From Flavobacteriales bacterium (lineage in GTDB: Bacteria > Bacteroidota > Bacteroidia > Flavobacteriales_D > Sanyastnellaceae): 40,839 bases of DNA. A program made the position numbers and the translations under genes. The notes under the pieces were generated by a model that was given only the letters and a program-made list of their open reading frames with translations, was not told the origin of the DNA and searched no databases. This document shows, in pieces, positions 2,897 through 28,635 of the stretch (position 1 is its first letter; each line of letters starts with the position of its first letter). The stretch lies in assembly GCA_016780385.1 (NCBI GenBank), contig JADHLY010000014.1, forward strand, positions 1 through 40,839, given 5' to 3'.

Positions 2897-5800
2897 ATGA
2901 ACCGTCTGATTACCCTTCTTTTTTGCCTTGTCTCTGTGGCTCTTGCCCACGGACAAGGCCCCGCTTATGGTCTCTCCGTCGAAGTTGTCGCGGAGCACGA
3001 TAGCGGCCCTTTGGCCGGTATGACCACCTATCAAATCTTTATGGACTGTGTCTATGCGGACGACATCGTTTCGTCCGTCAGTGGAGATGCCATCTTTCCG
3101 ATGGACCTCTCGACCACGACGACCTTCTATCAAGACGCTTTAGGCGCGGCGACCCCCAATGCAGTCAACCCACTGCTCTTCGGATTCTTCCCGGACCTGG
3201 CGTACGATACGTGGGTGACGGTGGGCATTTCCCAACAGCCCGATGCGGCAGCGGGAGAAGGTGAGATCAGCACGGTCGAAAGTCCCACGCAGGCGTGGGT
3301 CGCCGCTTTCGAGGCAGGGGGCAATCTCGTCATGGATGACGCTACGGGTGGCGCATGGTTCGTGACACAGAATTACAGCAATGGTTTGGCAGGTGATGAC
3401 TTGAAGGTGCTTTTGGCCCAGGTCACCACCGACGGTGAGATTTCAGGAACATTTTTGGTGCAGGTCTTTGAACATGGTGTGGGCGCATCAGACTTGCGGT
3501 TCCACTTGAGCTTTGATGGCACCGATGGATCGGGTGCGACAGGATGTACCGATCCCGACGCCGACAACTACAATTCAGGGGTAGCAGAAGATGACGGTTC
3601 TTGCCTCTATGGGGGCTGTACCGATGCAGCGGCCTGTAACTACGATGTGGCGGCCAACGACGACGATGGCAGCTGTGCATTCCCTGACCCCTTCCGCGAT
3701 TGCGCGGGTGTCTGTCTGTCGGACAGCGATGAAGATGGGGTATGTGATGAAGAGGAAGTGGCGGGATGTACGGATGCGACCGCATGGAATTACGATGATG
3801 CGGCGACCGATGAGGATGGGAATTGCATCTATTTCAATGCCTGCGACATCGACGCGGATGCCGTGGTGATGGTCAGCAGTTTTGATTACGATCCGGCCGT
3901 GTTGAGCCTCGAAGTAGGGGCGACTGTGGTGTGGGTCAATGTGGGGGGCTTGCACAACGTCAATGCCACCACGGATCAGCTGACTGGATTGCCATTTGAC
4001 AATCCACAACCGTTTACCATTCCCGCGGTACTGGGTTCGACCGAAGGCACTTGTCTTGGGTCGTTCACGTTCACGGTCCCCGGTATCTACAACTACAACT
4101 CTTCGGTATCCAACCAGGCTTCTTTGGGCATGACGGGAACGATTGTCGTGGGCACGGGTGGATGTAACGATGAGGATGCGACGAACTATGACGCCACAGC
4201 CGAATTCAATGACGGCACCTGCATCTATGATGGATGTACCGATGCGTCAGCGAGCAACTACGACCCCGATGCCGTGATCGACAACGGGACGTGCATCTAT
4301 CCCGGTTGTACGGATACGGAAGCGGCCAATTACGACGCCGGTGCCAACGAGAACGACGGAAGCTGTCTCTACCCCGGTTGTACGGACTTAGCAGCGGCCA
4401 ACTACGACGTCCAGGCCAACACCGACGATGGCACATGCTTCTACCTCGGTTGCATGGATCCCACAGCGTGTAACTACGATGCCACGGCCGATACGGACGA
4501 TGGCAGTTGCGCCGATGCCTTGGATACCTGGGGCGTGGACTACCTCGATTGCGACGGGATCTGTCTCAACGACGCCGATGAAGATGGCGTGTGCGACGAA
4601 GAGGAGGTCTTGGGATGTAACGATGTGACAGCCTGCAACTATGACGGCCTGGCCACGGAGAATGACGGCACTTGCGACTATTGCACGTGCGCCGGTAATG
4701 GCACGGACACGACCTGGATTCAAGGCGACACCCTCACGCAGCTGACCTTCACGGATGATACCTCAGGGTATGCCGTGGATGTGGAATGGGTGACGACGCA
4801 CACTGGAGGTGTCCTTGACGGCATGTCGACTTACCGCCTGTATGTGGTGGCCAATGCGCCCGAGGACCTCTTGAGCTCATGCTACGGCAACAGCAACAAC
4901 CCCTTGGTCATTGGATCGACGGCGCCGCTGTATCAGGATGCCTTCGGCAGCACCTTTGGGACCGGCATCAATCCGCTGTTGTTGCCAGCGTTCCCTGATG
5001 TGGCTTACGACAGCTGGGTGACCATTGGATTGGACCAGACGCCGCCTCCGGGATACAGCAATGTCCAAAGTGCCCAGAGCCCCAGCCAGAATTGGATCGC
5101 CGACTTCGATGCCGGTGGAGAGCTGCGCATGGATGACGCTGTGGGTGGTGCATGGTTTGTGACCTCTTCCAACCTCAACGGCGTGCCCGATGCAGAGCTT
5201 CGGGTTTTGGTGGCTCAATTCACCACATCCGGTGTGGTATCCGGCACCTTGCCCATTCAGATTTTCCCCTTGGGCAATGGTTCCGAAGAGGAGCGTGCTG
5301 CCTTCACCTTCACAACTGAAGGATTGGGCCAGCCCGAATTGACCGCGGTGGTTTCTACCGGAGGCACGGGGGGCAACAACTGCGGATGCCTCGACCCCGA
5401 GGCCGACAACTACGACGCGGATGCTGCATTTGAAAATGGGACTTGCTTGTATTCAGGGTGTACCAATGCCAATGCGTTGAACTACGATGCGGGTGCCAAT
5501 GTGGACGATGGCTCGTGTGTCGTGCCCGGATGTACCAATCCCGAAGCCGACAACTACGATCCTGAGGCCAACCAAAACAATGGCTCTTGCGTCATCAGCG
5601 GTTGCACCTATAACGACGCCTCGAATTTTGATCCTACGGCCAACGTGGACGATGGGAGCTGCATCTACTTTGGTTGTGTGGACCCCACGGCGGACAACTA
5701 CGACCCGACATCCAATACCGACGACGGGTCTTGCTTGTACCTGGGTTGCACAGACCCTGAGGCGGACAACTTCGATGCCGGCGCCAACCAGAACGATGGC

Positions 5801-8800
5801 ACCTGCGAATTTTTGGGTTGTACCATCCCTGTGGCCGCGAACTATGACGCCGATGCCAATGTGGATGACGGCAGCTGCATTTTCCCAGGATGTACCAATC
5901 CTGAAGCGACCAACTACGACATCACGGCCAACGAAGACGACGGTACGTGTATCCTGGAAGGCTGCTTGGATGAGAACGCGTCCAACTATGATGAAGACGC
6001 CAACTCAGACGACGGCAGCTGCACTTATCCCGGTTGCACGGACTCCGGAGCGGTCAACTTCAATCCCGGTGCCAACCTCGATGACGGCACTTGTGTTTTC
6101 CCCGGCTGCTTGGACAGCGATGCGTTGAACTATGACCCCCTCGCCAACTTGGATGACGACAGTTGCCAATATGGTGGATGTTTGGATGCAGAGGCGGTGA
6201 ACTTCGATGCCACCGCCGATGTGGACGATGGGTCTTGCGTGTACTCCGGTTGTACGGATGCTGCTGCGTCCAACTTTGACAGCACAGCTTCCTTGGACGA
6301 TGGGTCTTGTATCTATCCCGGTTGCACGGACAACAGTGCATTGAACTATGACCTCCTCGCCAATGAGGATGACGGTTCGTGTCAATACGGGGGTTGTATG
6401 GACCCCGGTGCCTGTAACTACGATGCTGCTGCCGACGTGGAAGACGGATCCTGCACGTATCCCATCTCCTTGAACGTAGACTGCAATGGAGACTGCCTCA
6501 ATGATGCCGATGGTGATGGCATTTGCGATGAGGACGAATTCAGTGGTTGTACCGATGAGACCGCATGCAATTTCAACCCCGACATGACCGAGGATGATGG
6601 CAGTTGTGAATACTGTTCCTGTGCGTCTGATGGGGCAGCCGGCCTCGACGTGTATGACTACGAGACCAACCAGTCCGGATATGGCTTGCGGTTGATTCGT
6701 GTTGCCGACCACACTGGCGGTGCCCTCGACGGCATGACCACATGGCGCGTTATTGCGACGGTGAGCCATCCGGACGACATGCTCTCCAGTGCTTACGGCA
6801 ATGAGGGACTTCCGCTCCAGATCTCTTCTACGGCACCCTTCTACCAGGACGTGTTGGGCAGCACTTTTGCGAGTGGGGTAAACCCCTTGTTGCTCTCGAG
6901 CTTCCCAGACCTCGCTTACGACAGCTGGGTCACGATTGGCATTGAGGGCACCCCTGATGCTGCGGCAGGAGAGGGGGCTGTCCAAAGCGCCCAAAGCCCG
7001 GGGCAGAATTGGATCATTGGCTTTGATGCCGGTGGAGAAATCCTCATGGACGATGCTACAGGTGGTGCCTGGTTTGTGACCAATGTGTACACCAATGGCA
7101 TCGCTGGAGACGACCTCGAAGTGCTGCTGGGACAGTTCACCACGGCGGGCGAGCTCAGCGGTGTGTTGAACTACCAAGTCTTCATCGAAGGCAGTGGCGA
7201 GAACGACGTCCGTGTGACGGCGAACTTCTCAACTGCAGACCTCGCTGGCGTGGCACCACCACCGTGTGGTTGTACCGATACCACAGCCGACAACTACGAC
7301 GCCAGTGCCGTGTACGAGGATGGCTCGTGCGTGACGGCCGGGTGTACGGATGCTGCTGCGGACAACTTCAACCCATTGGCCAATGTCGACGATGGAGGCT
7401 GCCTGTTCAGCGGGTGCACGGACGAAGCGGCGTTTAACTACGACCCCTCGGCCAACGACGATGACGGCTCTTGCATCTTCTTTGGATGTACCAACCCCGA
7501 TGCGGCCAACTATGACGCGGATGCCAACTTCGACAACGGCAGCTGCATCGTCTACGGTTGTACGATTTCTGGCGCGGAGAATTACAACCCTGCGGCGACG
7601 GACAACGATGGTTCCTGCATTTTCGTGGGCTGCACCAACGCGGACGCCAGCAATTACGACCCCCTGGCGAGCATCGACGACGGTTCCTGTGTGGTGCCCG
7701 GTTGTACCGACGCCCAAGCGACCAACTACAACCCGGATGCGACCTTCAACAATGGCAGCTGCGAGTACCTCGGCTGTACCGATGAGGCCGCCTGTAACTA
7801 TGATGCTTTGGCGTTGACGGACGATGGCAGTTGCCAATATCCCTCCGACATCTATGACTCGGAAGAGTACGATTGCAATGGCGAGTGCATCACCGACACC
7901 GATGGCGATGGCATTTGCGACGCCTTCGAAGTATTGGGATGTACCGAAGTCATGGCCTGCAATTACTTCGGCGCAACCGATGATGATGGGTCTTGCGAAT
8001 ACCTCTCTTGTGCGGGCTGTTCAGATGCTGAAGCCGACAACTACGAGCCCGGTGCACTGATCGCCAATGACGACCTCTGCGAATACCTCGGTTGCACCAG
8101 CCCCGCTGCGGACAACTACGATTCAGAGGCCAACGTCAATGACGGGTCCTGCATCTTCAGCGGTTGCACCGATCCAGCGGCTGACAACTACGACCCCCAG
8201 GCCAACCTGGACACCAACTGCATTTACCTCGGTTGTATTAACCCTGCAGCGGACAACTACGACGCTGAGGCCAACACCAACGATGGTTCCTGCGTCTTCA
8301 CCGGGTGCACGGACCCCAATGCCGACAACTATAACCCGCAGGCCAATTCAGACTCCAACTGTCTGTACCTCGGGTGCCTCGATGCCGACGCCTCGAACTT
8401 CGACCCGACGGCCAACACCGAAGACGGCAGCTGTGTATACCTCGGTTGTACCGATGATGCGGCGTGCAACTTCAGTGCAACGGCCAACACAGACGACGGA
8501 AGCTGCAGCTATCCGGCCTCTGCCAGTGTGGATTGCAACGGAGACTGCCTGCTTGATACCGACGGCGATGGCGTGTGCAACCCCGACGAAATCCCCGGTT
8601 GCCTCCTGCCAGGGGCTTGCAACTACAACCCGGACGCTACCGACGCTGGTGTGGTGTGTGATTACACCGCTTGCGCTGGATGTACCGACCCTACGGCCGA
8701 CAACTATGACGTGACGGCGACCTTGCCGAGTGGCGACTGCCAGTACCTCGGTTGCACGGACCCGGAAGCGGACAACTTCGCACCGGGCGCCAACGTGGAC

Positions 8801-11800
8801 GACGGTGGATGTTCTTACGGAGGCTGCACGGACCCCGCAGCGTACAACTACGACAGCAACGCTTCGTTGGACGATGGGTCCTGCCTCTATGCGGGTTGTG
8901 TCGACCCTGATGCTTGCAACTTCGACGAGAATGCAGACACGGACGATGGCACCTGTACGTACCCCGCCCCTGAATACACGTGCTTGGGTTACTGCATTTC
9001 AGACTACGACGGTGACGGCATTTGTGACGCCTTTGAGGTGCCGGGTTGTACCGCGCCTTCTGCGTGCAACTACGAAGCCACGGCCACCGAAAACAACGGC
9101 AGCTGTGAGTGGACGTCTTGCGTGGGCTGCACGGATGCCGCCGCGGACAACTTCTCGCCAACGGCATTGACCGACGACGGATCCTGCGAATTTGGCGGGT
9201 GTACTGACCCGACTGCGGTGAACTATGAGACCCAGTCGACCTACAATGATGGGACTTGCTTGTACGGCGGATGTACGGACAACGGCGCATGCAACTTCAC
9301 GGCCGGCGCCAATTATGACGACGGTTCTTGCGAGTACCTCTCTTGTGCGGGTTGCATGGTTCTGATCGCTTGCAACTACGATCCTACAGCCTCCATCTAC
9401 AACGACGCTGTATGTGACTTTGCCTCTTGTTGTGGTGACCCCGCAGCCGACAACTACGATGCCGACATCTCCAACCTTTTGGTGGAGGGATGTCTCTATG
9501 GTGGGGATGCTCCTGCCGCAGAGGTCACTGGCTGCGACCTCTCGTTTGCCTGCAACTTTGGTGATCCCGTCAATGACTGTGGGTTCGCCTCATGCGCCGG
9601 TTGTATTGAGGAAGGGGCCTGTAATTATGATGATGCAGCCACCTTGGCCATCACGTGCCTCTATCCGGAAGACCTCTATGATGCGGACTTCGTCGATTGC
9701 GATGGCGCTTGCTTGAATGACGTCAACGAGAATGGCATTTGCGACGAGATCGAGCCCTCTGGCTGCACGGACCCCAGCGCCTGTAACCTCAATCAGCAAG
9801 CGTCCTTTGACGATGGTTCTTGCGAATACTTGAGCTGCGCGGGATGCACAGTGGAAGCTGCCTGTAACTATGACGCGACCGCTACGGTCAACGATGGCGG
9901 CTGTGACTTCGACAGCTGTGCCGGATGTCTGGACGAGGTGGCCTGCAACTATGACGCAACGGCCGTCCTCGACAACGGCACCTGTATCTATGCCCAGCCC
10001 GAATACGATTGTGCCGGGGTGTGCCTCGAGGACACCGACAGCGATGGCATCTGTGATGCCTTCGATGAGCCAGTATTCGGTTGTAACGATGCTGCTGCCT
10101 GTAACTATGACGCCTTGGTGACAGACAACGACGGATCCTGTGACTTCTGCTCTTGCTTCATCACGACATCGGATACGGAAGGGTATGGCGTAGAAGTGGA
10201 GGTTGTGGCTGAGGACGGTGTTCCAGGATACACGACCTACAGGGTCTATGCGACGACTCCTTCTTCGGACGATTTCGTCAGCGCCATCACCGGTTTGGCG
10301 GGAACGCCGCTTGAGGTGCAAACCACGGGTGAGTTCTGGCAAAGTGGCATCGGTGGCGTTACGCCTTCGGTGATCACCGAATTGCTCATTGGATTCATTC
10401 CGGACCTCGCCTACGACAGTTGGGTGACGGTCGGTTTGGACCACAAAGCCAATGCCAACCAAGGGGAGGAGGATGCCGCGACGGTATCCGGTGTATCCCC
10501 CAGTTGGACAGTGGCCTTCGAAAACGGAGACGACATCCTCATCAACGATGGGACCGGCGGTGGATGGTACGTGCTGAACTCTGCCGTCAACGGTATTTCG
10601 GGCGATGACCAACGGGTGTTGTTGGGCCAGTTCACCACAGATGGTGACCTGAGCGGCAGCATGCGGATCCAGGTATTCCCTGGCGGGGATGCGGAAGCGG
10701 ACCTGCGCTACATCGCCACCTTCGGTGCGCCTGATTGCGGATGTACCGACCCCGATGCCCTCAACCCCGATTTGGACGCTGCTTATGACGATGGAAGCTG
10801 CCAGTACCCTGGCTGTACGGATGACGAGGCGGACAACTATGACGCGGGTGCGGACGTCGATGATGGCAGCTGCATCTACAGCGGTTGTACCGACCCTGCG
10901 GCCGACAACTACGACGCCCAGGCCACCGTTTTTGACGGAAGCTGCATCTTCTTTGGCTGTACCGACCCCCTCGCTGGGAACTACGACGCTTTGGCCAACA
11001 CCAACGACGGGTCGTGCGACTACACGGGCTGCACTTCGCCTTCAGCCTCCAACTACAACCCCATCGCGACGGTGGATGACGGCAGCTGTCAGTTTGACGG
11101 CTGTACGGACGCCGAAGCGGCCAACTACGAGCCCGGCGCCAACAACGATGATGGCTCTTGTCTCTACCCAGGTTGCACCAACCCCGCAGCCGACAATTAC
11201 GACGTCCAGGCCAACGTGCCCGATGGATCCTGCGTGATTTCAGGCTGCACGGATGCCGAAGCGGCGAACTATGACGCCGACGCCAACAACGACGATGGCA
11301 GCTGTGCCTTCCTCGGTTGCACGGATGAGGGCGCGGACAACTTCGACGCACAGGCCAACTCCGATGACGGCAGCTGCCTCTACGGTGGATGCACCCAGAT
11401 GGGCGCCTGTAACTACGACCCCTCTGCCAACGCAGACGATGGAAGTTGCACCTTCCCTGAGGACCTCTTTGGCGCAGACAATGTGGACTGCACGGGCGCC
11501 TGCAACAATGACGCTGATGAAGATGGTGTCTGTGATGAAGACGAGGTGTTGGGCTGCATGGACGAGACCGCCTGTAACTTCTCAGCAGACGCCACCGATG
11601 ACGACGGCAGTTGTGAGTCTCTGTCCTGCGCAGGTTGCACGGACCCTGAGGCCGACAATTATGATGTGGAGGCCAGCATCGAGGATGGTTCGTGTGTGAT
11701 CAGCGGCTGCACCTATTCGACTGCAGCCAACTACAACCCGGACGCCACCGTAGAGGATGGCAGTTGCAGCTTCGGCGGTTGTACCAACCCTGACGCCATC

Positions 11801-14800
11801 AACTACAGCGCCTTGGCTGACGTGGACAATGGCAACTGCATCCTTTTGGGATGCACGGACCCCGCGGCGATCAACTTCGACCCCACGGCCACTTTGGATG
11901 ACAACAGCTGCCAAGTCTACGGCTGCACCAACCCCTTGGCGGTCAACTTTGCTGCCAATGCGGTAGTGGACGACGGCACTTGTGTCATCGCGGGATGCAC
12001 CAACCCCTTGGCCATCAACTACAGTGTCGTGGCGACCACCGACGACGGTTCATGTATCGTGCTGGGATGTACCGATCCCATTGCCGACAACTACAATGCG
12101 GATGCCAACATCAACAATGGTTCCTGCGTGATCGGCGGATGTACGCTCTCGTTTGCCACGAACTACAACCCTCTTGCGACGTACGATGATGGCAGCTGCC
12201 TGATCTACGGTTGCACGGACCCCGCCGCCTTGAACTACAACTTCTTTGCGACCCTGGACAACGGCACCTGTTTGTTTGCTGGCTGTTTGGACCCTGAAGC
12301 GGACAACTACAATCCGGACGCCACCTTTGACACGGGCGACTGTGACTACCTCGGTTGTACCGACACCGGTGCGGCCAACTTCGACGCTGACGCCAATACT
12401 GACGACGGTTCCTGCTTGTACCCCGGTTGCACCGATCCGGCGGCTTCCAACTACGATGCCGATGCCAACAGCGAGGACGGCAGTTGCATCTACCTCGGCT
12501 GTACGGATGAGACGGCTTGTAACTATGATGCGACGGCCAACGCGGACGACGGAAGCTGTGACTTCGTGTCCTGCTTGGGATGTATGGACCCCGCAGCGTG
12601 TGATTACGACGCGGAAGCGACCCAAGACGACGGTTCCTGTTCTTATCCCGTGGACCTCTATGGGGTCGATTGGCTGGATTGCGCGGGCGCTTGCCTCCAA
12701 GATACCGATGGCGATGGCGTTTGTGACGAAGAAGAGGTGGCGGGTTGTACCAACGCCATCGCGGTGAACTTCAATCCCGATGCCACCGATGAAGACGGCT
12801 CTTGTCAAATCGAGGGCTGCACGGATTCCACCGCTGCCAACTTTGATGAGACCGCCAACCTCGACGACGGCACATGCCTGTATCCCGGTTGCACGGACAT
12901 CGCGGCCGACAACTACGATGAAGGGGCCAACAGTGATGACGGCTCGTGTCTCTACTTCGGTTGCACGGATCCCGAAGCCGACAACTTTGACGCGGGTGCC
13001 AACAGCGAAGACGGCACTTGCTTGTACTTCGGCTGCACGGACGCTGAGGCGGACAACTATGACGCCGGCGCCAACAGCGACGATGGCTCGTGCTTGTACT
13101 TCGGATGTACCGATGCATCGGCGGACAACTTCGACGCCGGCGCCAACAGCGACGATGGCTCATGTCTGTACTTCGGATGCACGGACCCCGCCGCCAACAA
13201 CTTTGTAGCTGGTGCCAACAGCGACGATGGCTCCTGTCTCTACTTTGGCTGTACGGACGCTGAAGCGGACAACTTCGATGCTGGGGCCAACTTCGACGAC
13301 GGTACGTGCGAGTACTTCGGTTGCATGGATCCTGAGGCTTCCAACTACGACGCTGGCGCCAACGTGGAAGATGGGTCCTGCACCTATCCCGGTTGTACAG
13401 ACAGCTTCGCGGACAACTTTGACCCTGGAGCTAACCTCGAGGACGGCTCTTGCGATTACCTCGGTTGTACCGATTCCGGGGCCATCAATTACGATGACTT
13501 CGCCAATGTGGATGACGGCAGTTGCTTGTTCCTGGGTTGTACCGACCCTGAAGCCGACAACTACGACCCCAATGCGAACTACGAAAGTGGTTTGTGCGAG
13601 TATGAGGGGTGCACGGACCCCGAGGCGGACAACTACGATCCCGAGGCCAACGTCAACAACGGTTTCTGTGTCTATGTGGGATGTACCGATGCCGAAGCGG
13701 CCAACTACGATGCAGGAGCCAACACCAATGACGGCTCATGTCTCTACGGCGGTTGTATCGACCCTGCCTACCTCGAATACGATGCCACGGCAGATGTAGA
13801 CGATGGCTCTTGCCAGACGCTCATTGTCGAAGGCTGCACGGACCCCGACTTTACCGAGTTCGACCCTGCGGCCAACGTGGAGGATGGCTCCTGTGCTACT
13901 GCCGTGGTGCTCGGTTGTACCGACCCGAACTTCCTGGAGTTCGATCCGGAAGCCAACACCTTTGATGGCAGCTGCGCCACGCCTGTGGTGACCGGTTGTA
14001 CCGACCCGAATTTTGTGGAGTACAACCCCTTCGCAAACACCGATGATGGCTCCTGCGCTACGCCGGTTGTGGAAGGCTGTACCGATGCCAACTACCTGGA
14101 ATTCGATGCAGCGGCCAACACCGATGACGGTTCTTGTGTCACGCCAGTGCTCACGGGCTGTATGGAGAGTGAGGCGTGCAACTACAACCCCTTGGCCAAT
14201 ACGCCTGACACCTGCGATTACCCTGTGGATGTCTACGGCATTGACTACGTCGATTGTGCAGGCCTGTGTCTGAACGACCTCGATGAAGACGGGGTCTGTG
14301 ACGAGGATGAGGTACCCGGCTGTATGGATGACGCCGCGGTCAACTTCGACCCGGAAGCGACCGATGAAGATGGCTCTTGTCTTTACCCCGGCTGCACGGA
14401 CCCCTTGTACCTCGAGTACGATGCGGATGCCGATGTGGACGACGGTTCTTGTGTCACGCTGGTGGTCGAGGGCTGCACCGATGCCGATTACATCGAATTC
14501 GATCCCGCGGCCAATGTGGACGACGGCTCTTGTACAGTATTGGTCTCCTTGGGCTGCACTGACTCTGATGCCTGCAATTACAGCGGTGGATACAACACCG
14601 ATGATGGCAGCTGTATCTACCCGGAGGACATCTACGGCGGCGACAACGTGGATTGCTTCGGCAACTGCTTGAATGATGCCGACGGAGACGGTGTCTGTGA
14701 TGAAGACGAGCTGGCGGGTTGCACGGACCCTGCGGCATGCAACTTCACCCCGTTCTTGACGGAGGATGACGGCAGCTGTGAATTCTGCTCCTGCTATGAG

Positions 14801-16069
14801 CCTGAGTGGCTCCCCGGTCCGGACTCCTTGTACTTCGAGAGCGACAGTGCAGGCTACGGAATCAAGCTACTGCGCGTGGCGGACCACGACGCTGGAGACC
14901 TTGAAGGCTTGTCCACTTATCGCCTCTATGTCACGGGACAGGACCCTGCGGACATGTTGTCCAGTGTCTTTGGCAATGGTGACCTTCCGCTGAACATCAA
15001 CACGTCCACGACGTGGTACCAGGACCCCATTGGTTCCAATTACGGTACGGCCATTAACCCCTTGCTCTTTGGCATCATTCCAACCCTGGCTTACGACAGC
15101 TGGGTGACCATTGGATTGGATGCCATTCCAAACTCAGCCTTGGGGCAGGGTGAGGTGCAAGGTGTGAGCAGCCCCGGACAGAATTGGTTGGCAGCATTCT
15201 CTGCAGGAGGCGGCATCGACATCGACGACGCCACCGGCGGAGCGTGGTTTGTCACCAGCGATGTGACCAACGGCATCATGGATGAAGGCCTCGAAGTCCT
15301 CATCGGCCAATTCACGACCGACGGTGTGATCTCAGGTACCCTCAACTTCCAGCTCTTTCTGGGCGGCGACGTGGATGCAGATATCCGTCCTTCGGTCAGC
15401 TTCTCTTCAGAAGACATGGCACCGAGTCTGTATTCCATGTGCGGATGTACGGATGAAGGAGCGGGCAACTACAATCCTGACGCCGTCTACGATGACGGCT
15501 CTTGCGCCAGCGGCCCTGGTTGTACCTATCCGACGGCAGCCAACTACGACGCTGAGGCGGGTTATGATGACGGAAGCTGTGTGTTTGCCGGGTGTACCGT
15601 GGATTTCTATCGCAACTACACCACGTTTGCCACGGTGGATGATGGAAGCTGCTCTGATGCACCGCCTTGTCCCGATTCCAATGGCGACGGCATGATTGGT
15701 GCGCTTGAGATCACAGACCTCTTGGTGTTCTACAACACCGATGGAGGAGGGTGTGGCATCTTCGCGCCATTGACACCGCTTGAAATCGGCGTGGACCCTT
15801 GTGACTTGCCAGGCGCTGATTGTGGCGATCAAGGATGCACCTATGCCAACGCCCAAAACTTTGACCCCGGTGCCACCATCGATGATGGGTCTTGCTTCTG
15901 GACGGGGTGTACCGATCCTACAATGCAGAACTATCAGCCACTGGCCAACCTGGACGACGGCACATGTGTCGCGCCAATCTGTTGGGACTTCGACTTTAGT
16001 GGTTCAGTGGGCATTCAAGACCTCTTGGACTTGTTGCTTCTCTTCAACCAATCCTGCGGAGCAGAATAA
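2897..16069 (+). CDS. Giant secreted protein of 4390 aa with ~113 two-Cys Asp-rich repeats, five large modules and dockerin-like C-terminus
   Basis: The ATG at 2897 gives a signal peptide (MNRLITLLFCLVSVALAHGQ); an in-frame TTG 8 codons upstream does not improve it. After the signal come, in order: module A1 (residues ~21-215), 3 short units, a cupredoxin-like domain (316-421), 6 units, module A2, 16 units, A3, 33 units, A4, 50 units, A5, 3 units, a dockerin-like loop, 2 units and a second dockerin-like segment. A typical unit is 24 aa: GCTD, x2, A, x, NYD, x2, A, x2, DDGSC, with two Cys each, probably disulfide bonded. Twelve units carry an insert with a thrombospondin-type-3-like DxDxDGxCDxxE stretch that should bind calcium. 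No type B T9SS domain ends the protein. It is probably a very long extracellular rod or surface layer component. The repeat type occurs in secreted proteins of marine Bacteroidota; its function is unknown to me. Followed by a strong terminator. Confidence 0.95.
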   Translation: MNRLITLLFCLVSVALAHGQGPAYGLSVEVVAEHDSGPLAGMTTYQIFMDCVYADDIVSSVSGDAIFPMDLSTTTTFYQDALGAATPNAVNPLLFGFFPDLAYDTWVTVGISQQPDAAAGEGEISTVESPTQAWVAAFEAGGNLVMDDATGGAWFVTQNYSNGLAGDDLKVLLAQVTTDGEISGTFLVQVFEHGVGASDLRFHLSFDGTDGSGATGCTDPDADNYNSGVAEDDGSCLYGGCTDAAACNYDVAANDDDGSCAFPDPFRDCAGVCLSDSDEDGVCDEEEVAGCTDATAWNYDDAATDEDGNCIYFNACDIDADAVVMVSSFDYDPAVLSLEVGATVVWVNVGGLHNVNATTDQLTGLPFDNPQPFTIPAVLGSTEGTCLGSFTFTVPGIYNYNSSVSNQASLGMTGTIVVGTGGCNDEDATNYDATAEFNDGTCIYDGCTDASASNYDPDAVIDNGTCIYPGCTDTEAANYDAGANENDGSCLYPGCTDLAAANYDVQANTDDGTCFYLGCMDPTACNYDATADTDDGSCADALDTWGVDYLDCDGICLNDADEDGVCDEEEVLGCNDVTACNYDGLATENDGTCDYCTCAGNGTDTTWIQGDTLTQLTFTDDTSGYAVDVEWVTTHTGGVLDGMSTYRLYVVANAPEDLLSSCYGNSNNPLVIGSTAPLYQDAFGSTFGTGINPLLLPAFPDVAYDSWVTIGLDQTPPPGYSNVQSAQSPSQNWIADFDAGGELRMDDAVGGAWFVTSSNLNGVPDAELRVLVAQFTTSGVVSGTLPIQIFPLGNGSEEERAAFTFTTEGLGQPELTAVVSTGGTGGNNCGCLDPEADNYDADAAFENGTCLYSGCTNANALNYDAGANVDDGSCVVPGCTNPEADNYDPEANQNNGSCVISGCTYNDASNFDPTANVDDGSCIYFGCVDPTADNYDPTSNTDDGSCLYLGCTDPEADNFDAGANQNDGTCEFLGCTIPVAANYDADANVDDGSCIFPGCTNPEATNYDITANEDDGTCILEGCLDENASNYDEDANSDDGSCTYPGCTDSGAVNFNPGANLDDGTCVFPGCLDSDALNYDPLANLDDDSCQYGGCLDAEAVNFDATADVDDGSCVYSGCTDAAASNFDSTASLDDGSCIYPGCTDNSALNYDLLANEDDGSCQYGGCMDPGACNYDAAADVEDGSCTYPISLNVDCNGDCLNDADGDGICDEDEFSGCTDETACNFNPDMTEDDGSCEYCSCASDGAAGLDVYDYETNQSGYGLRLIRVADHTGGALDGMTTWRVIATVSHPDDMLSSAYGNEGLPLQISSTAPFYQDVLGSTFASGVNPLLLSSFPDLAYDSWVTIGIEGTPDAAAGEGAVQSAQSPGQNWIIGFDAGGEILMDDATGGAWFVTNVYTNGIAGDDLEVLLGQFTTAGELSGVLNYQVFIEGSGENDVRVTANFSTADLAGVAPPPCGCTDTTADNYDASAVYEDGSCVTAGCTDAAADNFNPLANVDDGGCLFSGCTDEAAFNYDPSANDDDGSCIFFGCTNPDAANYDADANFDNGSCIVYGCTISGAENYNPAATDNDGSCIFVGCTNADASNYDPLASIDDGSCVVPGCTDAQATNYNPDATFNNGSCEYLGCTDEAACNYDALALTDDGSCQYPSDIYDSEEYDCNGECITDTDGDGICDAFEVLGCTEVMACNYFGATDDDGSCEYLSCAGCSDAEADNYEPGALIANDDLCEYLGCTSPAADNYDSEANVNDGSCIFSGCTDPAADNYDPQANLDTNCIYLGCINPAADNYDAEANTNDGSCVFTGCTDPNADNYNPQANSDSNCLYLGCLDADASNFDPTANTEDGSCVYLGCTDDAACNFSATANTDDGSCSYPASASVDCNGDCLLDTDGDGVCNPDEIPGCLLPGACNYNPDATDAGVVCDYTACAGCTDPTADNYDVTATLPSGDCQYLGCTDPEADNFAPGANVDDGGCSYGGCTDPAAYNYDSNASLDDGSCLYAGCVDPDACNFDENADTDDGTCTYPAPEYTCLGYCISDYDGDGICDAFEVPGCTAPSACNYEATATENNGSCEWTSCVGCTDAAADNFSPTALTDDGSCEFGGCTDPTAVNYETQSTYNDGTCLYGGCTDNGACNFTAGANYDDGSCEYLSCAGCMVLIACNYDPTASIYNDAVCDFASCCGDPAADNYDADISNLLVEGCLYGGDAPAAEVTGCDLSFACNFGDPVNDCGFASCAGCIEEGACNYDDAATLAITCLYPEDLYDADFVDCDGACLNDVNENGICDEIEPSGCTDPSACNLNQQASFDDGSCEYLSCAGCTVEAACNYDATATVNDGGCDFDSCAGCLDEVACNYDATAVLDNGTCIYAQPEYDCAGVCLEDTDSDGICDAFDEPVFGCNDAAACNYDALVTDNDGSCDFCSCFITTSDTEGYGVEVEVVAEDGVPGYTTYRVYATTPSSDDFVSAITGLAGTPLEVQTTGEFWQSGIGGVTPSVITELLIGFIPDLAYDSWVTVGLDHKANANQGEEDAATVSGVSPSWTVAFENGDDILINDGTGGGWYVLNSAVNGISGDDQRVLLGQFTTDGDLSGSMRIQVFPGGDAEADLRYIATFGAPDCGCTDPDALNPDLDAAYDDGSCQYPGCTDDEADNYDAGADVDDGSCIYSGCTDPAADNYDAQATVFDGSCIFFGCTDPLAGNYDALANTNDGSCDYTGCTSPSASNYNPIATVDDGSCQFDGCTDAEAANYEPGANNDDGSCLYPGCTNPAADNYDVQANVPDGSCVISGCTDAEAANYDADANNDDGSCAFLGCTDEGADNFDAQANSDDGSCLYGGCTQMGACNYDPSANADDGSCTFPEDLFGADNVDCTGACNNDADEDGVCDEDEVLGCMDETACNFSADATDDDGSCESLSCAGCTDPEADNYDVEASIEDGSCVISGCTYSTAANYNPDATVEDGSCSFGGCTNPDAINYSALADVDNGNCILLGCTDPAAINFDPTATLDDNSCQVYGCTNPLAVNFAANAVVDDGTCVIAGCTNPLAINYSVVATTDDGSCIVLGCTDPIADNYNADANINNGSCVIGGCTLSFATNYNPLATYDDGSCLIYGCTDPAALNYNFFATLDNGTCLFAGCLDPEADNYNPDATFDTGDCDYLGCTDTGAANFDADANTDDGSCLYPGCTDPAASNYDADANSEDGSCIYLGCTDETACNYDATANADDGSCDFVSCLGCMDPAACDYDAEATQDDGSCSYPVDLYGVDWLDCAGACLQDTDGDGVCDEEEVAGCTNAIAVNFNPDATDEDGSCQIEGCTDSTAANFDETANLDDGTCLYPGCTDIAADNYDEGANSDDGSCLYFGCTDPEADNFDAGANSEDGTCLYFGCTDAEADNYDAGANSDDGSCLYFGCTDASADNFDAGANSDDGSCLYFGCTDPAANNFVAGANSDDGSCLYFGCTDAEADNFDAGANFDDGTCEYFGCMDPEASNYDAGANVEDGSCTYPGCTDSFADNFDPGANLEDGSCDYLGCTDSGAINYDDFANVDDGSCLFLGCTDPEADNYDPNANYESGLCEYEGCTDPEADNYDPEANVNNGFCVYVGCTDAEAANYDAGANTNDGSCLYGGCIDPAYLEYDATADVDDGSCQTLIVEGCTDPDFTEFDPAANVEDGSCATAVVLGCTDPNFLEFDPEANTFDGSCATPVVTGCTDPNFVEYNPFANTDDGSCATPVVEGCTDANYLEFDAAANTDDGSCVTPVLTGCMESEACNYNPLANTPDTCDYPVDVYGIDYVDCAGLCLNDLDEDGVCDEDEVPGCMDDAAVNFDPEATDEDGSCLYPGCTDPLYLEYDADADVDDGSCVTLVVEGCTDADYIEFDPAANVDDGSCTVLVSLGCTDSDACNYSGGYNTDDGSCIYPEDIYGGDNVDCFGNCLNDADGDGVCDEDELAGCTDPAACNFTPFLTEDDGSCEFCSCYEPEWLPGPDSLYFESDSAGYGIKLLRVADHDAGDLEGLSTYRLYVTGQDPADMLSSVFGNGDLPLNINTSTTWYQDPIGSNYGTAINPLLFGIIPTLAYDSWVTIGLDAIPNSALGQGEVQGVSSPGQNWLAAFSAGGGIDIDDATGGAWFVTSDVTNGIMDEGLEVLIGQFTTDGVISGTLNFQLFLGGDVDADIRPSVSFSSEDMAPSLYSMCGCTDEGAGNYNPDAVYDDGSCASGPGCTYPTAANYDAEAGYDDGSCVFAGCTVDFYRNYTTFATVDDGSCSDAPPCPDSNGDGMIGALEITDLLVFYNTDGGGCGIFAPLTPLEIGVDPCDLPGADCGDQGCTYANAQNFDPGATIDDGSCFWTGCTDPTMQNYQPLANLDDGTCVAPICWDFDFSGSVGIQDLLDLLLLFNQSCGAE
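3842..4159 (+). other. Cupredoxin-like domain with degraded copper site (inside the giant protein)
   Basis: Residues ~316-421. The segment VGATVVWVNVGGLHNVN and the end GIYNY...LGMTGTIVV match the plastocyanin-like fold. His353 and Met412 are present. The Cys and second His expected in the ligand loop before the Met are replaced by Ser402 and Gln407, so copper binding is unlikely. It sits between short units 3 and 4 and occurs only once. Confidence 0.6.
12887..13318 (+). repeat. Six near-identical 72-bp tandem units
   Basis: Units 86 to 91, exactly 6 x 72 bp. The core DAGANSDDGSCLYFGCTD returns almost unchanged, and the DNA is also similar (gacgccggcgccaacagcga recurs). Other units differ far more, so this block looks like a recent tandem expansion. 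Confidence 0.85.
13751..14155 (+). repeat. Five 81-bp variant units (27 aa) with YLEYD/FxEFD core
   Basis: Units 98 to 102 are 27 aa long. The usual AxNYD is replaced by an aromatic-Leu-Glu-Tyr/Phe-Asp core (YLEYD, FTEFD, FLEFD, FVEYN, YLEFD), and the linker is extended (CATPVVT/E-like). Units 105 and 106 (about 14393-14553) are of the same type. One such unit also occurs in the truncated relative at the right end. Confidence 0.85.
15668..16057 (+). other. Two dockerin/EF-hand-like segments at the C-terminus of the giant protein
   Basis: Segment 1 (15668-15754) reads C-P-DSNGDGMIG, x4, DLLVF...C. Segment 2 (15980-16057) reads C-W-DFDFSGSVG, x2, DLLDLLLLF...SC and ends the protein. Both have the Asp-rich calcium loop followed by a Leu-rich helix, as in dockerin type I. 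Two short units lie between them. The same segment ends the protein encoded at 39491-40839. Confidence 0.7.
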
Positions 16070-16147: not shown

Positions 16148-17194
16148 CTACCGCGACCCCATTGGTGTCGCCCCCGTGAAGTCGGGGTTCCATGTCACAC
16201 CGACGGCCCAGCCTTGGGCAGCAGGAGAGGGGTGCCCCATCGGTAGTCCCGGCGCCAACCAAGCGGTGAGTTCGCCATGTTGCCAGGTAAGGGGGGTGCG
16301 CAAGACGCCATCCGATCTCCAAATGAGCCCCAGTTCGAAATGGTGACCCAAGCTGTTGCGCGTGTAGCGCGAGGTGGTGCCCCAGCTTTTACCGATGCCA
16401 GTTCCCACTTCGATGAGGTGGCTCTTTCCTTGCCAAGCGCCGCGGAGCCAAGCCCGCCCATCCAATGCGCCATTTCCCAACTGCCCTAGCGTCTCCACCC
16501 ATCCTGAAAGGGTTCTGCGCACGGTATCGGCATGGGTGGTCATGAAATGGGCTGTGGTGATGGGCAATACATGGTGCAGGCTCACTGCACCTTGGAATCG
16601 CGGGCCTTGCCCGCTGCGCTGTTGGTGTTGCCAGGCAAAGCCAACGGCGACTTCAGGTGAGAGCCCTGCTCCGGCAACGAGGCCATCGGGCTCTCCGGTT
16701 GGGGCCGCAGGATTGTAACCGCCCGAACCGTATTGCTGGTCCCAGGACCACTGCCTGCCGTCGAGCACCCATCCCCGCACGCCAATTCCTATTCCCGCGC
16801 TTCCCTTCCAATCCTGAGCCAGGGGCACCTTGATGGCCGCATGGAGGGCATGCCGCATTTCATTCCAACCTTGACCTGCTGCATGGATCCGGTTGGAGAG
16901 CCCGAAAGACCAGTTGCTGATGTTATTGCCCCATCCACCGCCTTTGGGCTGAGGCGTCCATCCAATGCCCAGCCATTGGTCGTTCATTGCGCCTGAGCCG
17001 CCTGTCCAACGGTTGGCGTGTTGCATCCCACAAGCAAATGGGGTGTCTCCAAGTGCCCACGCCGCAGGATGTTCGATGCCAGGGAGTCCCCCCGTCCAAG
17101 GGGCCATGGATTCCTGAGCCGCCATGCGCAGGCTCCCTGTAGAGAGCAGGGCCACGGACATCCACCCGCAGATTTGGACTGCACCTTTCGTCAT
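16148..17194 (-). CDS. PorP/SprF family type IX secretion membrane protein
   Basis: 348 aa. The start at 17192-17194 overlaps the stop of the upstream adhesin gene (ATGA) and gives a signal peptide (MTKGAVQICGWMSVALLSTG, cleaved near RMAAQES). The rest is Gly/Trp-rich with alternating beta segments, as in an outer-membrane barrel, and has the PorP/SprF character (PFACGMQHANRW near the N-terminus, GHHFELGLIWR and AVGVTW near the end). Family members bind or anchor T9SS cargo that carries a type B C-terminal domain. The gene directly before it encodes exactly such a cargo, so the two are probably partners. An in-frame extension upstream would overlap the adhesin by over 200 bp and was rejected. 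A slightly divergent family member; the operon position strengthens the call. Confidence 0.78.
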   Translation of the reverse strand: MTKGAVQICGWMSVALLSTGSLRMAAQESMAPWTGGLPGIEHPAAWALGDTPFACGMQHANRWTGGSGAMNDQWLGIGWTPQPKGGGWGNNISNWSFGLSNRIHAAGQGWNEMRHALHAAIKVPLAQDWKGSAGIGIGVRGWVLDGRQWSWDQQYGSGGYNPAAPTGEPDGLVAGAGLSPEVAVGFAWQHQQRSGQGPRFQGAVSLHHVLPITTAHFMTTHADTVRRTLSGWVETLGQLGNGALDGRAWLRGAWQGKSHLIEVGTGIGKSWGTTSRYTRNSLGHHFELGLIWRSDGVLRTPLTWQHGELTAWLAPGLPMGHPSPAAQGWAVGVTWNPDFTGATPMGSR

Positions 17195-20100
17195 CGGATC
17201 AATCGAAGGGGTTGTTCTACGATGATGGGCACTCCGCCATCTGTGGTGGCTTCCAATCGGACGGCATAGACTCCCACCGCTTCCTGATCTCCTGCCCAAC
17301 CGATGGGAAACCCTTCCTCTGTGGTGGCCTGCAGGGCACTTCCGGCGGGCAGTCCAACTTGGGATTCTTCCCAGACTAGTCGACCCCAGCCATCGTGAAT
17401 GGTCATGCGCCATGTGCTGACACCACTGCCGCGCGGTCTAAACCTGTCATTGGCACCGTCTCCGTTGGGAGAAAATGCATCCGGTAACCAGACATTGGTC
17501 TGAGGGAGGACGCAGATGGTGCTGCTCAATGTATCTGTGCAGCCCACATCCTGTTGCACCGCTTGGATCACCGTCCAGGTGCCTGCACTGGGCAAGGTCA
17601 ACAACGGATTGCTTCCTGCTGTCCAAGCCACGGAATCTGGAGTGGCGGGCATCCCTTGCAGTGCTGAGGGAAACCAGCTCCATTGGCCGGATTCTGCGCC
17701 GGTCGACAGATCGATGAGGCCGATGGGTTGGGCATCCCAAGGGATGCAGTCCGCCGCAGGGTTCACACTAAAAGCTGCGGCAATGGGAGGGTGTCCAGGC
17801 ACCAGAATGGTCGTGTCCAGTGCGCACCCTTCGAGGGTGTCAAGGACGCTCCAAGCGAGGGCACTTCCGGCAAGGGCGTCCACCACTACTGGGCCGTTTC
17901 CTGCGAAGCTGCCGTCGATGAAGTGTTGTACACCCGCTGGTGAAGGGACATCCAAAACAAGCGAAGTGGGCGCGTTGTGACAAGCCAGTGGGCCAAAGGT
18001 GATGTCGGTGTCGAAAGGTGGCAGGACGGTGAGCAGAATGCTGTCTTCTGCAGAAGTTGAACATCCGTCTCCCACGCTGACAGACCACCAAGATGTGACG
18101 GTGGGAATGAGGGTCCTCGTGCTCAGGGGGAGTCCCTCATCGGACCATGCAATGTCGAGACTGCCTGTCGGGGCCAACCCGCCCGTAATGACAGCGGTGG
18201 CTTGTGTGCCGGCCCCCGGGCACAACACCAGGTCGTCGGCTGTCAGCGCAACACTGAGTGGATCGAGTATTTGGAGGGTCCAGGCGGTATCGGTGCTGCA
18301 GGCTTCGCCTGACCATTGGACGGCCAGTAGATGCGTTCCACTTCCGATTTCTGCCGTGGAAGTATCGCTGAGCCAATCGGTGTCGTTGATGGTCCAGAGG
18401 GTTGTGGCACTGCCCGACGTGACACTTTCCAACGCGGGAGGAGGAGGGGAGATCAACACCTCATTGAAGCAGAGGATGGTATCACTGATGCTGTTCCAGA
18501 CCGGCGCCGATTCCACTTCGACCGCAACGTTGTCCGAGCAGCCCGCGGGATTGGTCCAAAGCAGGGTGTGCGCACCGGGCCCCGCTTGACCTGGAGACCA
18601 TGACCAAGTACTGTCATTGGTGGGCGTTTGGATGCCAGGGCCGCTCCACTGCGCACCTGCTGGCAGGATGGGGAGCAGCACTTCTGCGGAGGTGTTGCAG
18701 GAGACCCAAGGCTCGACATTGAGTGAATCAGGGTGAACTGAGATGTCCAGGGTGTCCGCACAGCCATTGACCGTATAGGTCAAGCGGTGTTCACCCACCG
18801 AAAGGCCCGGGGCGTTGATGCTCCAGTCGCAATCTCCAAGATCGGTGGGGTTTGTCGTGCCCAAGCCATTCCAAATGCCGCACCAAGGACTGACCTCAAG
18901 GCCATTGGCGAGCAAGTTGGCGGTGTCTGAAGCGCAAGCGTGCAATACGTCCGGTGCGATGGTGGTTTGACGGTTGAACATCCACAGGGTGTCCGTGCAC
19001 CCATTTGGGGCGCTGTAAATCAATGGAGACCATTGGTTGTCAGGGACATTGCCAGGTTGGTAAAGGCCAGAAATGGAGTCGTCCAAGGCGATGCCCGGCC
19101 CCTCCCAATTCCCGCCAGCAGGGAGGAAGTCGGGGTAGGGTACGAAGGGAAGCTGTTCGGGACAACTGGACATGGTTGGTCCCGCGTAGATGGGCAGCAG
19201 CGTGCCCGAGGCGAGGCGGTTACATCCTTGCATTTGGTAGGTCAAGGTGATGGGGCCTGCCGGCGCCTCTTCGGGCAGGAAGGCGTCGGCATCTTCGGAG
19301 AGGCCCGGTCCTGTCCACGTGCCACCCGGTGGGGAGGATGGCAGGGGAATGGCCGGTTCTGACTGACAGATTGTACCGATGTCAATCAGAGGGGCTGCCG
19401 GTTGGATGTGGATGTTGGTGATGTTCTGGCATGCACCTGCTGAAAACAGAACCTGAATCACGGTGTCCTGCCCCGGAGTGACCACGGCGCTGGGGTCAAA
19501 CGTGTTGCCTGTGATGCCCGTGCCTGTCCAGGTGCCGCCTGGCGGTGCTGCGGGGAGGTCAAACGGTGCAGATTCCGGGCACGTTGGGACATTGTTTGGG
19601 GCCCAGAAATTCACGACCGTAATGGTGGCTGTGGAGGCACAAGAAGCACTGCCGAATGCCGTGAAGGTGATGTCGTGTGCGCCCTGTCCACTTTCGCCAC
19701 TGTCAAACAGCCAAGGTGGTCCGATGACACCTGTTCCTGACCATTCACCGGATATGGAGCCTGTGCTCAATGGAACCTCCGCTCCTGGACAGATGGAGGT
19801 ATCCTGTACCCAGGCACCGAGGTCGAGTACGGTGATCGTCACAGACGCTTGACCTGTGGTGCCAGTGGTGACCTCATTGGCGGTCGCTGTATAGGTGGTG
19901 GTGGTCACAGGACAAACATTCCAAGGCCCAGGACCATTGAAGGTGCTGCCATCGGATGCGGTCCATGTCAAGTTGGTTTCTTCGCATCCCCGTTGCAGGG
20001 CTTCTAAAGTGGCGCAGCCCCCCGTGCAGACGGTGTCCGTGTCGGTGATGACCTCGGGGGTGGCAGGACAACCCATTGAGGTCCAAGTCGCTTCAATGGG

Positions 20101-20862
20101 AAGGGTCCAAATGGAATCGCAAGCGTCCCTGACGCCGATAAAGAGGTTGGCGGTCACAGTGCAGTTGCCGTCCACAGATTGGCCGTCCTCGAACGGGATG
20201 ATCAAGGCGTCGTTGGTCGTTCCTGAGCAACTCAAAATGGCCGCGGCGGATGTATCTGGAGCCCAAGTCTGTCCATTGGTGGCCGAAAAACTCAGGCTTG
20301 ACCAATCGATCAGGCTGCATTCGATGGGATAAGAGAAGTCCAGATTCACGGCCGTAAATGGGCAGTTGCCCGGTGCACCCAAGGATGCCTCTGGTGGCAC
20401 TGGCGGCGGCGGGTCCGCAGTCCAAGTCAGGTGGAACCCTTGGGGTTGGGCGCTGGCGTCTGACACAAAGTGCACGGTCAGCGGGCCGCTGGTCGTGTAA
20501 GAAGGAGGGTTGGCAATGTTGCCAAATAGGGTGTCGAGGACAGGAGAGGAAAGGCCCGGGCCGTCGTGGAGCACCAGATAGTCAAACAACAACCCGCCCG
20601 GTGCGGCGGGTTCGATGTCGATGCTCCCGATAAATCCAACGTCCAGAGGACTTCCCGCTTCGATGGTAAAGACGAGGTCTTCGTTGTTGCCATAAGCCTC
20701 TTCGGTGCCTCCTGAATCGGTCAATTCTCCAAAGCAATCCGTAACGGTCGTGTCCGTCATGGCATACTGAGGTGGTTGTGCCCAAACGGTATTCGTCTCA
20801 AACCCAGCGCAAGCCAGGAGCAACGCTACGAGCAAGTGTCGTGCTATCCGGGGGGGGCTCAC
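17191..20862 (-). CDS. T9SS adhesin with N-terminal CUB-like domain, Ig/SprB-like repeats and type B (gliding motility-associated) C-terminal domain
   Basis: 1223 aa. Signal peptide of about 29 residues ending TVWAQ. Residues ~33-150 look like a CUB domain (FDYLVLHDGPGLSSPVLDTLFG). The middle has many ~80 aa segments with paired Cys and phrases such as PPGGTWTGPGL and WSGPGIQTP, typical of SprB-like repeats in gliding-type adhesins. The last ~100 residues hold the type B signal: LPDAFSPNGDGANDRF, then MTIHDGWGRLVWE, then GVYAVRLEA and a basic end (RLIR). It should be exported by Sec, moved over the outer membrane by T9SS and exposed at the surface. The start overlaps the preceding lipoprotein by 4 bp and the stop overlaps the PorP/SprF gene by 4 bp, so the three are translationally coupled. 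Confidence 0.92.
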   Translation of the reverse strand: MSPPRIARHLLVALLLACAGFETNTVWAQPPQYAMTDTTVTDCFGELTDSGGTEEAYGNNEDLVFTIEAGSPLDVGFIGSIDIEPAAPGGLLFDYLVLHDGPGLSSPVLDTLFGNIANPPSYTTSGPLTVHFVSDASAQPQGFHLTWTADPPPPVPPEASLGAPGNCPFTAVNLDFSYPIECSLIDWSSLSFSATNGQTWAPDTSAAAILSCSGTTNDALIIPFEDGQSVDGNCTVTANLFIGVRDACDSIWTLPIEATWTSMGCPATPEVITDTDTVCTGGCATLEALQRGCEETNLTWTASDGSTFNGPGPWNVCPVTTTTYTATANEVTTGTTGQASVTITVLDLGAWVQDTSICPGAEVPLSTGSISGEWSGTGVIGPPWLFDSGESGQGAHDITFTAFGSASCASTATITVVNFWAPNNVPTCPESAPFDLPAAPPGGTWTGTGITGNTFDPSAVVTPGQDTVIQVLFSAGACQNITNIHIQPAAPLIDIGTICQSEPAIPLPSSPPGGTWTGPGLSEDADAFLPEEAPAGPITLTYQMQGCNRLASGTLLPIYAGPTMSSCPEQLPFVPYPDFLPAGGNWEGPGIALDDSISGLYQPGNVPDNQWSPLIYSAPNGCTDTLWMFNRQTTIAPDVLHACASDTANLLANGLEVSPWCGIWNGLGTTNPTDLGDCDWSINAPGLSVGEHRLTYTVNGCADTLDISVHPDSLNVEPWVSCNTSAEVLLPILPAGAQWSGPGIQTPTNDSTWSWSPGQAGPGAHTLLWTNPAGCSDNVAVEVESAPVWNSISDTILCFNEVLISPPPPALESVTSGSATTLWTINDTDWLSDTSTAEIGSGTHLLAVQWSGEACSTDTAWTLQILDPLSVALTADDLVLCPGAGTQATAVITGGLAPTGSLDIAWSDEGLPLSTRTLIPTVTSWWSVSVGDGCSTSAEDSILLTVLPPFDTDITFGPLACHNAPTSLVLDVPSPAGVQHFIDGSFAGNGPVVVDALAGSALAWSVLDTLEGCALDTTILVPGHPPIAAAFSVNPAADCIPWDAQPIGLIDLSTGAESGQWSWFPSALQGMPATPDSVAWTAGSNPLLTLPSAGTWTVIQAVQQDVGCTDTLSSTICVLPQTNVWLPDAFSPNGDGANDRFRPRGSGVSTWRMTIHDGWGRLVWEESQVGLPAGSALQATTEEGFPIGWAGDQEAVGVYAVRLEATTDGGVPIIVEQPLRLIR

Positions 20863-28521: not shown

Positions 28522-28579
28522 GGCCTAGGCAAATGAGGAAATGTGAATTTCCTAGCACCGGGCTTCATATTCAAGTCGC

Positions 28580-28610
28580 TTGACAACCTTTTTCCCGGTT
28601 GGTCGGTTTG
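28580..28610 (+). promoter_or_regulatory. Candidate promoter of the beta-helix adhesin gene
   Basis: TTG at 28580-28582, 20 bp, then TCGGTTTG (28603-28610), one mismatch to TAnnTTTG. The ATG at 28636 would have a leader of about 20 nt. Confidence 0.4.
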
Positions 28611-28635
28611 TACTTTGCGCCTTGTACCGATTCCG

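Follow-up and report, generated by a model that had tools for sequence, protein, structure and literature searches.

The stretch of DNA analysed here (the window: 40,839 nucleotides of contig JADHLY010000014.1, assembly GCA_016780385.1, from a Flavobacteriales bacterium of the Sanyastnellaceae) encodes a protein of 4390 residues with more than a hundred copies of one short cysteine-bearing repeat. The locus raises the question of what such a giant protein is, how its chain is held together and where it acts. An earlier note, made from the letters alone, had described a secreted protein of about 113 Asp-rich units with two cysteines each, and had proposed one disulfide per unit, a stiff chain and calcium binding by the units. 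The explanation preferred here, which is considered rather probable, is a disulfide-locked surface rod that is exported, presents beta-sandwich domains and is sorted or held by its C-terminal tail. Its surface location, its shape and the role of its tail are what we infer from sequence and from predicted structures.

An intact gene of conserved length

The gene occupies positions 2897-16069 of the forward strand as a single unbroken frame, with an ATG at 2897, a stop codon at 16067-16069 and no internal stop, which bears out the 4390-residue length given in the earlier note. The product, of 454 kDa, carries a net charge of about -797 (K+R minus D+E); its residues include 321 Cys and 626 Asp, but only 3 Lys and 19 Arg.

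An assembly artefact or a frameshift is ruled out by orthologues of equal length. Full-length orthologues were found in four other members of the genus, three of exactly 4390 residues and one of 4464 residues. The four 4390-residue copies, that of the window included, align without gaps in all six pairs, at 79.9-87.8% identity, and every one of the 321 cysteines of the window protein is kept in all five full-length copies. Because the lengths match and these cysteine columns are invariant, the gene is not regarded as an artefact. The dN/dS ratio was 0.035-0.105 in the four of ten orthologue pairs for which it was computable, where dS was near saturation (1.69-2.27). Among the partial orthologues, that of genome G004 aligns with no gap over 3217 residues; G007 has one gap of 3 residues, G001 and G009 have 3 residues in two gaps each, G012 has 1 gap residue, and G015 has one gap of 24 residues, the length of one unit.

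The search for the gene with a C-terminal probe covered the genus and nine genomes from other families of the order; it was found in 14 of the 17 genus genomes (source included) and in none of those nine. In the window, an AIM24-family gene lies directly upstream (1956-2744, +). The same arrangement occurs in five of nine orthologue loci; of the remaining loci, two stop within or at the giant gene, where the available sequence ends, and in two more (L125, L126) no AIM24 gene was found at that place.

The genus also contains a second giant protein with the same EF-hand tail (loci L218-L222, from G006, G001, G004, G007 and G009), and 38 units are present in five of its five full-length copies. 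This count leaves out G016 (a shorter frame of 2365 residues with 31 units), G002 (truncated where the fetched sequence stops, with 27 units over 3102 residues) and G008 (a 1997-residue frame with 10 units, probably another protein). A stable unit number is therefore general in the genus, and the idea of length selection peculiar to the studied gene is weakened. The strict absence of gaps, however, is stronger in the studied gene than in the second giant, in which the three closest pairs show 1-4 gap events and up to 10 residues, 28-30 gap events lie between G001 and those three, and pairs with G009 contain 474-727 gap residues.

The repeat unit, its cysteines and its relatives

The unit reads GC-T-D-x2-A-x-N-(Y/F)-D-x2-A-x2-D-D-G-S-C plus three residues, 24 residues in all. 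The proposed number of about 113 copies is confirmed: a unit HMM, built from 104 regular 24-residue units, gave 114 hits, 112 of them above 5 bits, and a simple regular expression also found 112. The literal pattern of the earlier note occurs only 11 times, whereas the looser spacing GC-x18-C-x3 occurs 104 times. In these 104 regular copies, for which G1, C2 and C21 were set by the search pattern, G19 is conserved in 101, A14 in 97, N9 in 96 and A7 in 95. The cysteine count, which had been put at well over 220, is in fact 321, since further cysteines come from ACN-type units and from 12 Asp-rich linkers.

The number of cysteines is even in 102 of 102 unit-to-unit segments of the giant protein (19-60 residues). 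Segments of units without Cys at position 8 contain exactly two cysteines in 77 of 80 cases and four in the other 3, and the ACN-type segments, with Cys at position 8, contain four or six in 22 of 22. Six longer segments span other domains; five are even and one is odd (residues 573-829, 7 cysteines). Even segments were also counted in the other proteins of the source genome (128/132), in loci L122-L204 (1501/1555) and in viral loci (320/343). With a core pattern that leaves both cysteines free, both were present in 233 of 233 matches from the source genome, 2043 of 2043 from relatives and 493 of 503 from viruses. This parity supports the earlier proposal of one disulfide per unit, and points to one C2-C21 bond per unit, with C8 forming a further bond to a cysteine of the linker. 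Each unit would then be a minimal fold closed by a bond from its first to its last cysteine, and tandem units would stack into a stiff chain; in ACN units the extra cysteine probably bonds to a cysteine in the following Asp-rich loop or short linker.

The units gave no sign of concerted evolution: neighbours have 12.4 of 21 positions in common, compared with 11.9 for all pairs. Units at the same position in orthologues share 16.2-17.3 positions, against 11.9-12.1 for other units. Per species, 46-63 of the 104 units have the orthologous unit as their single best match and 15-21 more have it as a tied best, so that between a quarter and slightly over a third of the units are matched better by another unit.

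An AlphaFold model of six units (12959-13390; 18 aligned rows) gave a regular, confidently predicted chain (mean pLDDT 96.3, pTM 0.67), in line with the chain of regular units described in the earlier note. That note had also expected no named family. This is true insofar as no NCBIfam model matched the unit, and Pfam gave only chance-level matches on the whole protein, both below cut-off (PF23509, E 0.038; PF18760, E 0.4); the one PHROGs match was a weak one of 16 residues to phrog_9943, of unknown function (E 0.00017). No description of the repeat was found among listed papers on dockerins of Bacteroidetes or Planctomycetes, giant or cysteine-rich Flavobacteria proteins, a phage motif and TSP3 repeats, a literature to which subscription papers mostly do not belong. 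A solved relative nevertheless exists. When a profile of 45 diverse units was compared with the PDB, five of the five distinct sequences at E<=10 were MPEG1, with a best E of 1.2e-6. An earlier three-unit profile had also placed MPEG1 first (4.6e-4), followed by an RTX protein (0.39) and hydrogenase chains (1.7 and 2.5). Foldseek gave three PDB matches at E<=10, all of them MPEG1, with E-values of 2.0-3.1; two of these superpose at 0.6-0.7 A over 24-25 columns with 56-58% identity, and the third aligns poorly (6.7 A). By these sequence profiles, the only solved structure with a significant relationship to the unit is MPEG1/perforin-2, in its small 'EGF-like' hinge.

EGF domains carry six cysteines, paired in three bonds, and 77 of the 80 non-ACN segments of the giant protein have exactly two. 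Because of this difference the unit is treated here as a separate minimal module, and the same is suggested for the 'truncated EGF' hinge of MPEG1.

Among predicted structures of viral proteins (BFVD), 22 fold matches reached E<=10, 13 of them E<=0.001; those that extend over about 150 columns have an rmsd of 9-27 A. Given these values and a six-unit pTM of only 0.67, the present data do not fix how one unit is placed relative to the next; this geometry either differs between models or is poorly predicted. One of the 22 matches, A0A3G4ZMM5, a MACPF-domain protein of Terrestrivirus, is weak (E 0.37); if true, it would pair the unit with a MACPF domain as in MPEG1.

The calcium binding that had been read from the Asp/Asn pattern of the unit is not supported as stated. 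If it were correct, the giant protein would be a calcium-loaded fibre, in which the Asp and Asn residues of the units bind calcium and thereby provide a store or a calcium-dependent stiffness, as in thrombospondin type 3 repeats. The 626 Asp residues and the strongly negative net charge are in keeping with such a fibre, as are 12 EF/TSP3-like loops of the DxDxDG type (for example DADGDGICD; within 3722-14701, +) and the EF-hand tail of the same protein. These loops, however, sit in the tail and in linkers, each of the 12 following an ACN- or ACD-type unit, and the unit itself does not have the DxDxDG spacing. Moreover, the MPEG1 unit keeps most of the Asp/Asn pattern, yet the word calcium does not occur in the three MPEG1 papers searched, PMC7593815 and PMC6753088 among them. 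The acidic, Lys-poor composition is also seen in other exported proteins of the window, such as a 1223-residue CHU_C protein with 0% Lys, and lysine depletion is thus ruled out as a special feature of the giant. Both thrombospondin type 3 repeats and the giant protein have short, Asp-rich, Cys-bearing repeats, and the 12 linkers carry loops of the DxDxDGxC type, but the main unit has no DxDxDG core and no TSP3 model of Pfam matched at E<=1. Calcium could well play a part in the linkers and the tail; that the unit itself binds it is unproven, and the calcium-loaded fibre is considered unlikely.

Domains between the arrays and the C-terminal tail

The disulfide-locked rod preferred here would have to be exported. 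A Sec signal peptide, predicted by eye (2897-2953, +), is cut before Gln20 (AHG/QG), which supports the earlier claim of secretion. This Gln is conserved in the four full-length orthologues and fits the Bacteroidetes Q-rule for signal peptidase I (PMC5837995).

The mature part contains several elements that the earlier note had not mentioned: five large domains, a plastocyanin-like domain, the 12 linker loops described above and a dockerin-like C-terminus. All of these lie on the forward strand, with the arrays delimited by HMM hits and the large domains by profile A4. The first large beta-sandwich domain (2963-3523) is followed by unit array A (3542-3841), the plastocyanin-like domain (3842-4159) and array B (4160-4699). 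The second large domain (4766-5320) precedes array C (5384-6634), the third (6677-7240; modelled as 6671-7267) precedes array D (7268-10159), and the fourth (10181-10738) precedes array E (10739-14797), which holds the six modelled units. The fifth large domain (14852-15415) is followed by array F (15443-15652), a possible first dockerin-like EF-hand module that is weakly matched (15662-15730, E 0.079), the last two units (15833-15967) and the C-terminal dockerin-like EF-hand tail (15977-16060, E 4.1e-11). A second protein of the window with the same unit and the same EF-hand tail, recognised by the unit HMM and the tail profile, is encoded at 39494-40693 on the reverse strand; it has four units above 5 bits and a lamin-tail-domain match below the cut-off.

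The plastocyanin-like domain was recognised by a profile search with the stretch 3842-4162, in which residues of about 316-421 of the giant protein resembled 1pcs (E 0.0032). This segment raises the possibility of a redox protein in which the repeats are incidental. It is, however, one domain of about 105 residues in a protein of 4390, and the stretch expected to hold the ligands reads YNYNSSVSNQASLGM, without Cys and without His. Measured against the Cys and His copper-ligand pattern of plastocyanins, the domain seems to have lost these ligands, so copper binding is doubtful, and a redox protein is a highly improbable reading. In the surface rod, the plastocyanin-like domain and the five large beta-sandwich domains would instead be held away from the cell, and a role in spacing or adhesion might follow.

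The large domain, of about 185 residues, occurs in five copies between the arrays. AlphaFold modelled one copy as a beta-sandwich (pLDDT 93.4, pTM 0.88). Assignment to a known fold failed: Foldseek gave no convincing match (best E 5.9e-4, but TM 0.23), the large-domain profile had no PDB match better than E 0.34, and the modelled copy had no Pfam match. Among 54 large-domain members, four Pfam families matched one member each, with a best E of 0.015.

The profile of the tail was built from 19 C-termini and gave 68 matches at E<=1 in the source genome. Among the ORFs of the fetched stretches, a count to which four weak whole-genome matches (C49, C28, C38, C4) do not belong, 41 distinct ORFs carry the tail, and in 39 of these it lies no more than 2 residues from the stop codon; of the two ORFs that differ, C47 is a strong match (E 9.7e-11). 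Units are also carried by 30 of the 39 tail-ended ORFs and the large domain by 10, and a crude test found an N-terminal hydrophobic stretch in 29. All 17 genus genomes have the tail, as do all 8 genomes from other genera of the family; of 15 further genomes of the order 3 have it, one only marginally. The tail of the giant, common to 38 other ORFs of the genome, could act as a shared sorting or attachment handle.

In comparison with solved structures, the tail profile matched best a type I dockerin, 2y3n_B (E 1.8e-7, over two stretches), followed by calmodulins from 1.9e-6 and by other dockerins. This match gives some ground for a scaffold or matrix, in which the tails and large domains of many proteins would bind each other in the manner of cohesin and dockerin, and the giant would be the scaffold of an extracellular sheath. 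The distribution of the two elements is also compatible with such a pairing. The large domain was found in 17 of 17 genus genomes, in all 8 genomes of other genera of the family, where the tail is likewise present, and in 2 of the 15 others of the order, both of which have the tail (Fisher p 0.029 for co-occurrence in these 15 genomes of other families). Tail and large domain also correlate across the 8 family genomes (Spearman 0.72, p 0.045). However, 10 of the 17 large-domain ORFs of the fetched stretches hold both elements, and 3 of the other 7 are cut at the stretch end. Because both are so often in one protein, their joint spread is only a hint of a functional pair, and their co-occurrence may be trivial. 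Furthermore, no Pfam cohesin (PF00963) was found in the source genome, which is 83.6% complete and might contain an unrecognised partner, and the large domain resembles the cohesin fold only weakly (best match 2zf9, rank 32, TM 0.33/0.36). The Dockerin_1 model had no match at E<=0.001 in the source genome, and when the 19 tails were scanned singly, 8 matched at E<=0.1, the best at 0.0029. With neither a Pfam cohesin nor a Dockerin_1 match at these thresholds in the incomplete source genome, a known cohesin-dockerin system is rejected, and a scaffold of the kind described is considered improbable.

The source genome contains SprA, and the T9SS type A tail model matches it 42 times, with 39 matches above the cut-off. 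In the giant protein, neither a type A nor a type B C-terminal sorting domain of the T9SS was found (Pfam, NCBIfam, E<=1). Two other genes of the window (17194-20862, -, and 28543-32148, +) match the T9SS type B (CHU_C) model, the former at a score slightly under the cut-off; their products contain 0% and 0.25% lysine, a strong depletion in exported proteins of this organism. The C-terminal tail at the end of 39 ORFs is a possible undescribed sorting or anchoring signal, a role that can be tested. A bolder and quite improbable extension is that, alongside the type IX tails, this tail would be a new signal of the bacterial family for surface sorting or attachment, with the large domain as its receptor, so that giant unit-built rods and dozens of other exported proteins would assemble into an extracellular lattice set by calcium.

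Distribution and comparison with known systems

Within the fetched stretches of the source genome, units were recognised at E<=1e-3 in 45 distinct ORFs. Of 40 relatives, 38 have units, whereas among 118 genomes sampled across the phylum just 10 do, the source being included in both counts. The named unit loci of one scan (73 kept) come mostly from marine Flavobacteriales metagenome assemblies, and two are labelled as Chitinophagales. One contig assigned to an uncultured euryarchaeote (L144) carries both the unit and the large domain; a binning mix-up is more likely here than a real transfer.

Units are also found in viral sequences. In a phage collection, 1 of 50,697 records matches the unit, and 353 stretches of IMG/VR encode relatives of it; the best 80 loci among the latter hold 84 unit ORFs. 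Nine viral unit ORFs, chosen by eye for having no obvious T9SS tail, were compared with PHROGs: six match PHROG 14478, a virion structural family, at E 4e-55 to 5e-108, and the other three match nothing. In all six (L034, L047, L051, L060, L062, L083), the units lie outside the best matched stretch, toward the C-terminus. Six other ORFs of the viral set were compared with Pfam; three end in T9SS domains and three have no match, and the T9SS-tailed ORFs may be bacterial contigs binned as viral. Among the matches in the viral structure library was a crAss-type muzzle-domain protein (E 1.0e-11).

The conserved length, the cysteine parity, the predicted model, the kinship with MPEG1, the placing of the tail next to the stop codon and the arrays in phage virion proteins are all counted in favour of the surface rod. 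What is new here is the array, the unnamed module in common with MPEG1 and the family-wide tail. A minimal repeat closed by a putative disulfide appears to be common to bacteria and phages of marine origin and to a pore-forming immune protein of animals; in the bacteria it builds very long arrays that keep their number of units from species to species. Such a unit may provide a ready-made building block that can be tested for rigidity.

Several known systems can be compared with the giant protein. The hinge of MPEG1 (PDB 6u2j, 6u23, 6sb3) has about 23 residues, both cysteines and a local backbone that matches the predicted unit, but in that animal protein a single copy lies between the MACPF and P2/MABP domains, whereas the giant has about 113 copies in tandem. 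The marine phage proteins of PHROG 14478 contain arrays of the same unit, but belong to the virion and not to a bacterial surface. A connector role of the unit is plausible in each case, the MPEG1 hinge, where it joins two domains, and the phage virion proteins. The T9SS substrates of Bacteroidota are, like the giant, large and exported, and some other unit proteins indeed end in T9SS type A domains (C24, C30, L016, L018); unlike them, the giant ends in an EF-hand tail. This tail resembles one EF-hand half of a type I dockerin, but differs from the latter in having one or two copies with flanking cysteines, in its position at the extreme C-terminus of 39 ORFs and in scoring below the Dockerin_1 threshold.
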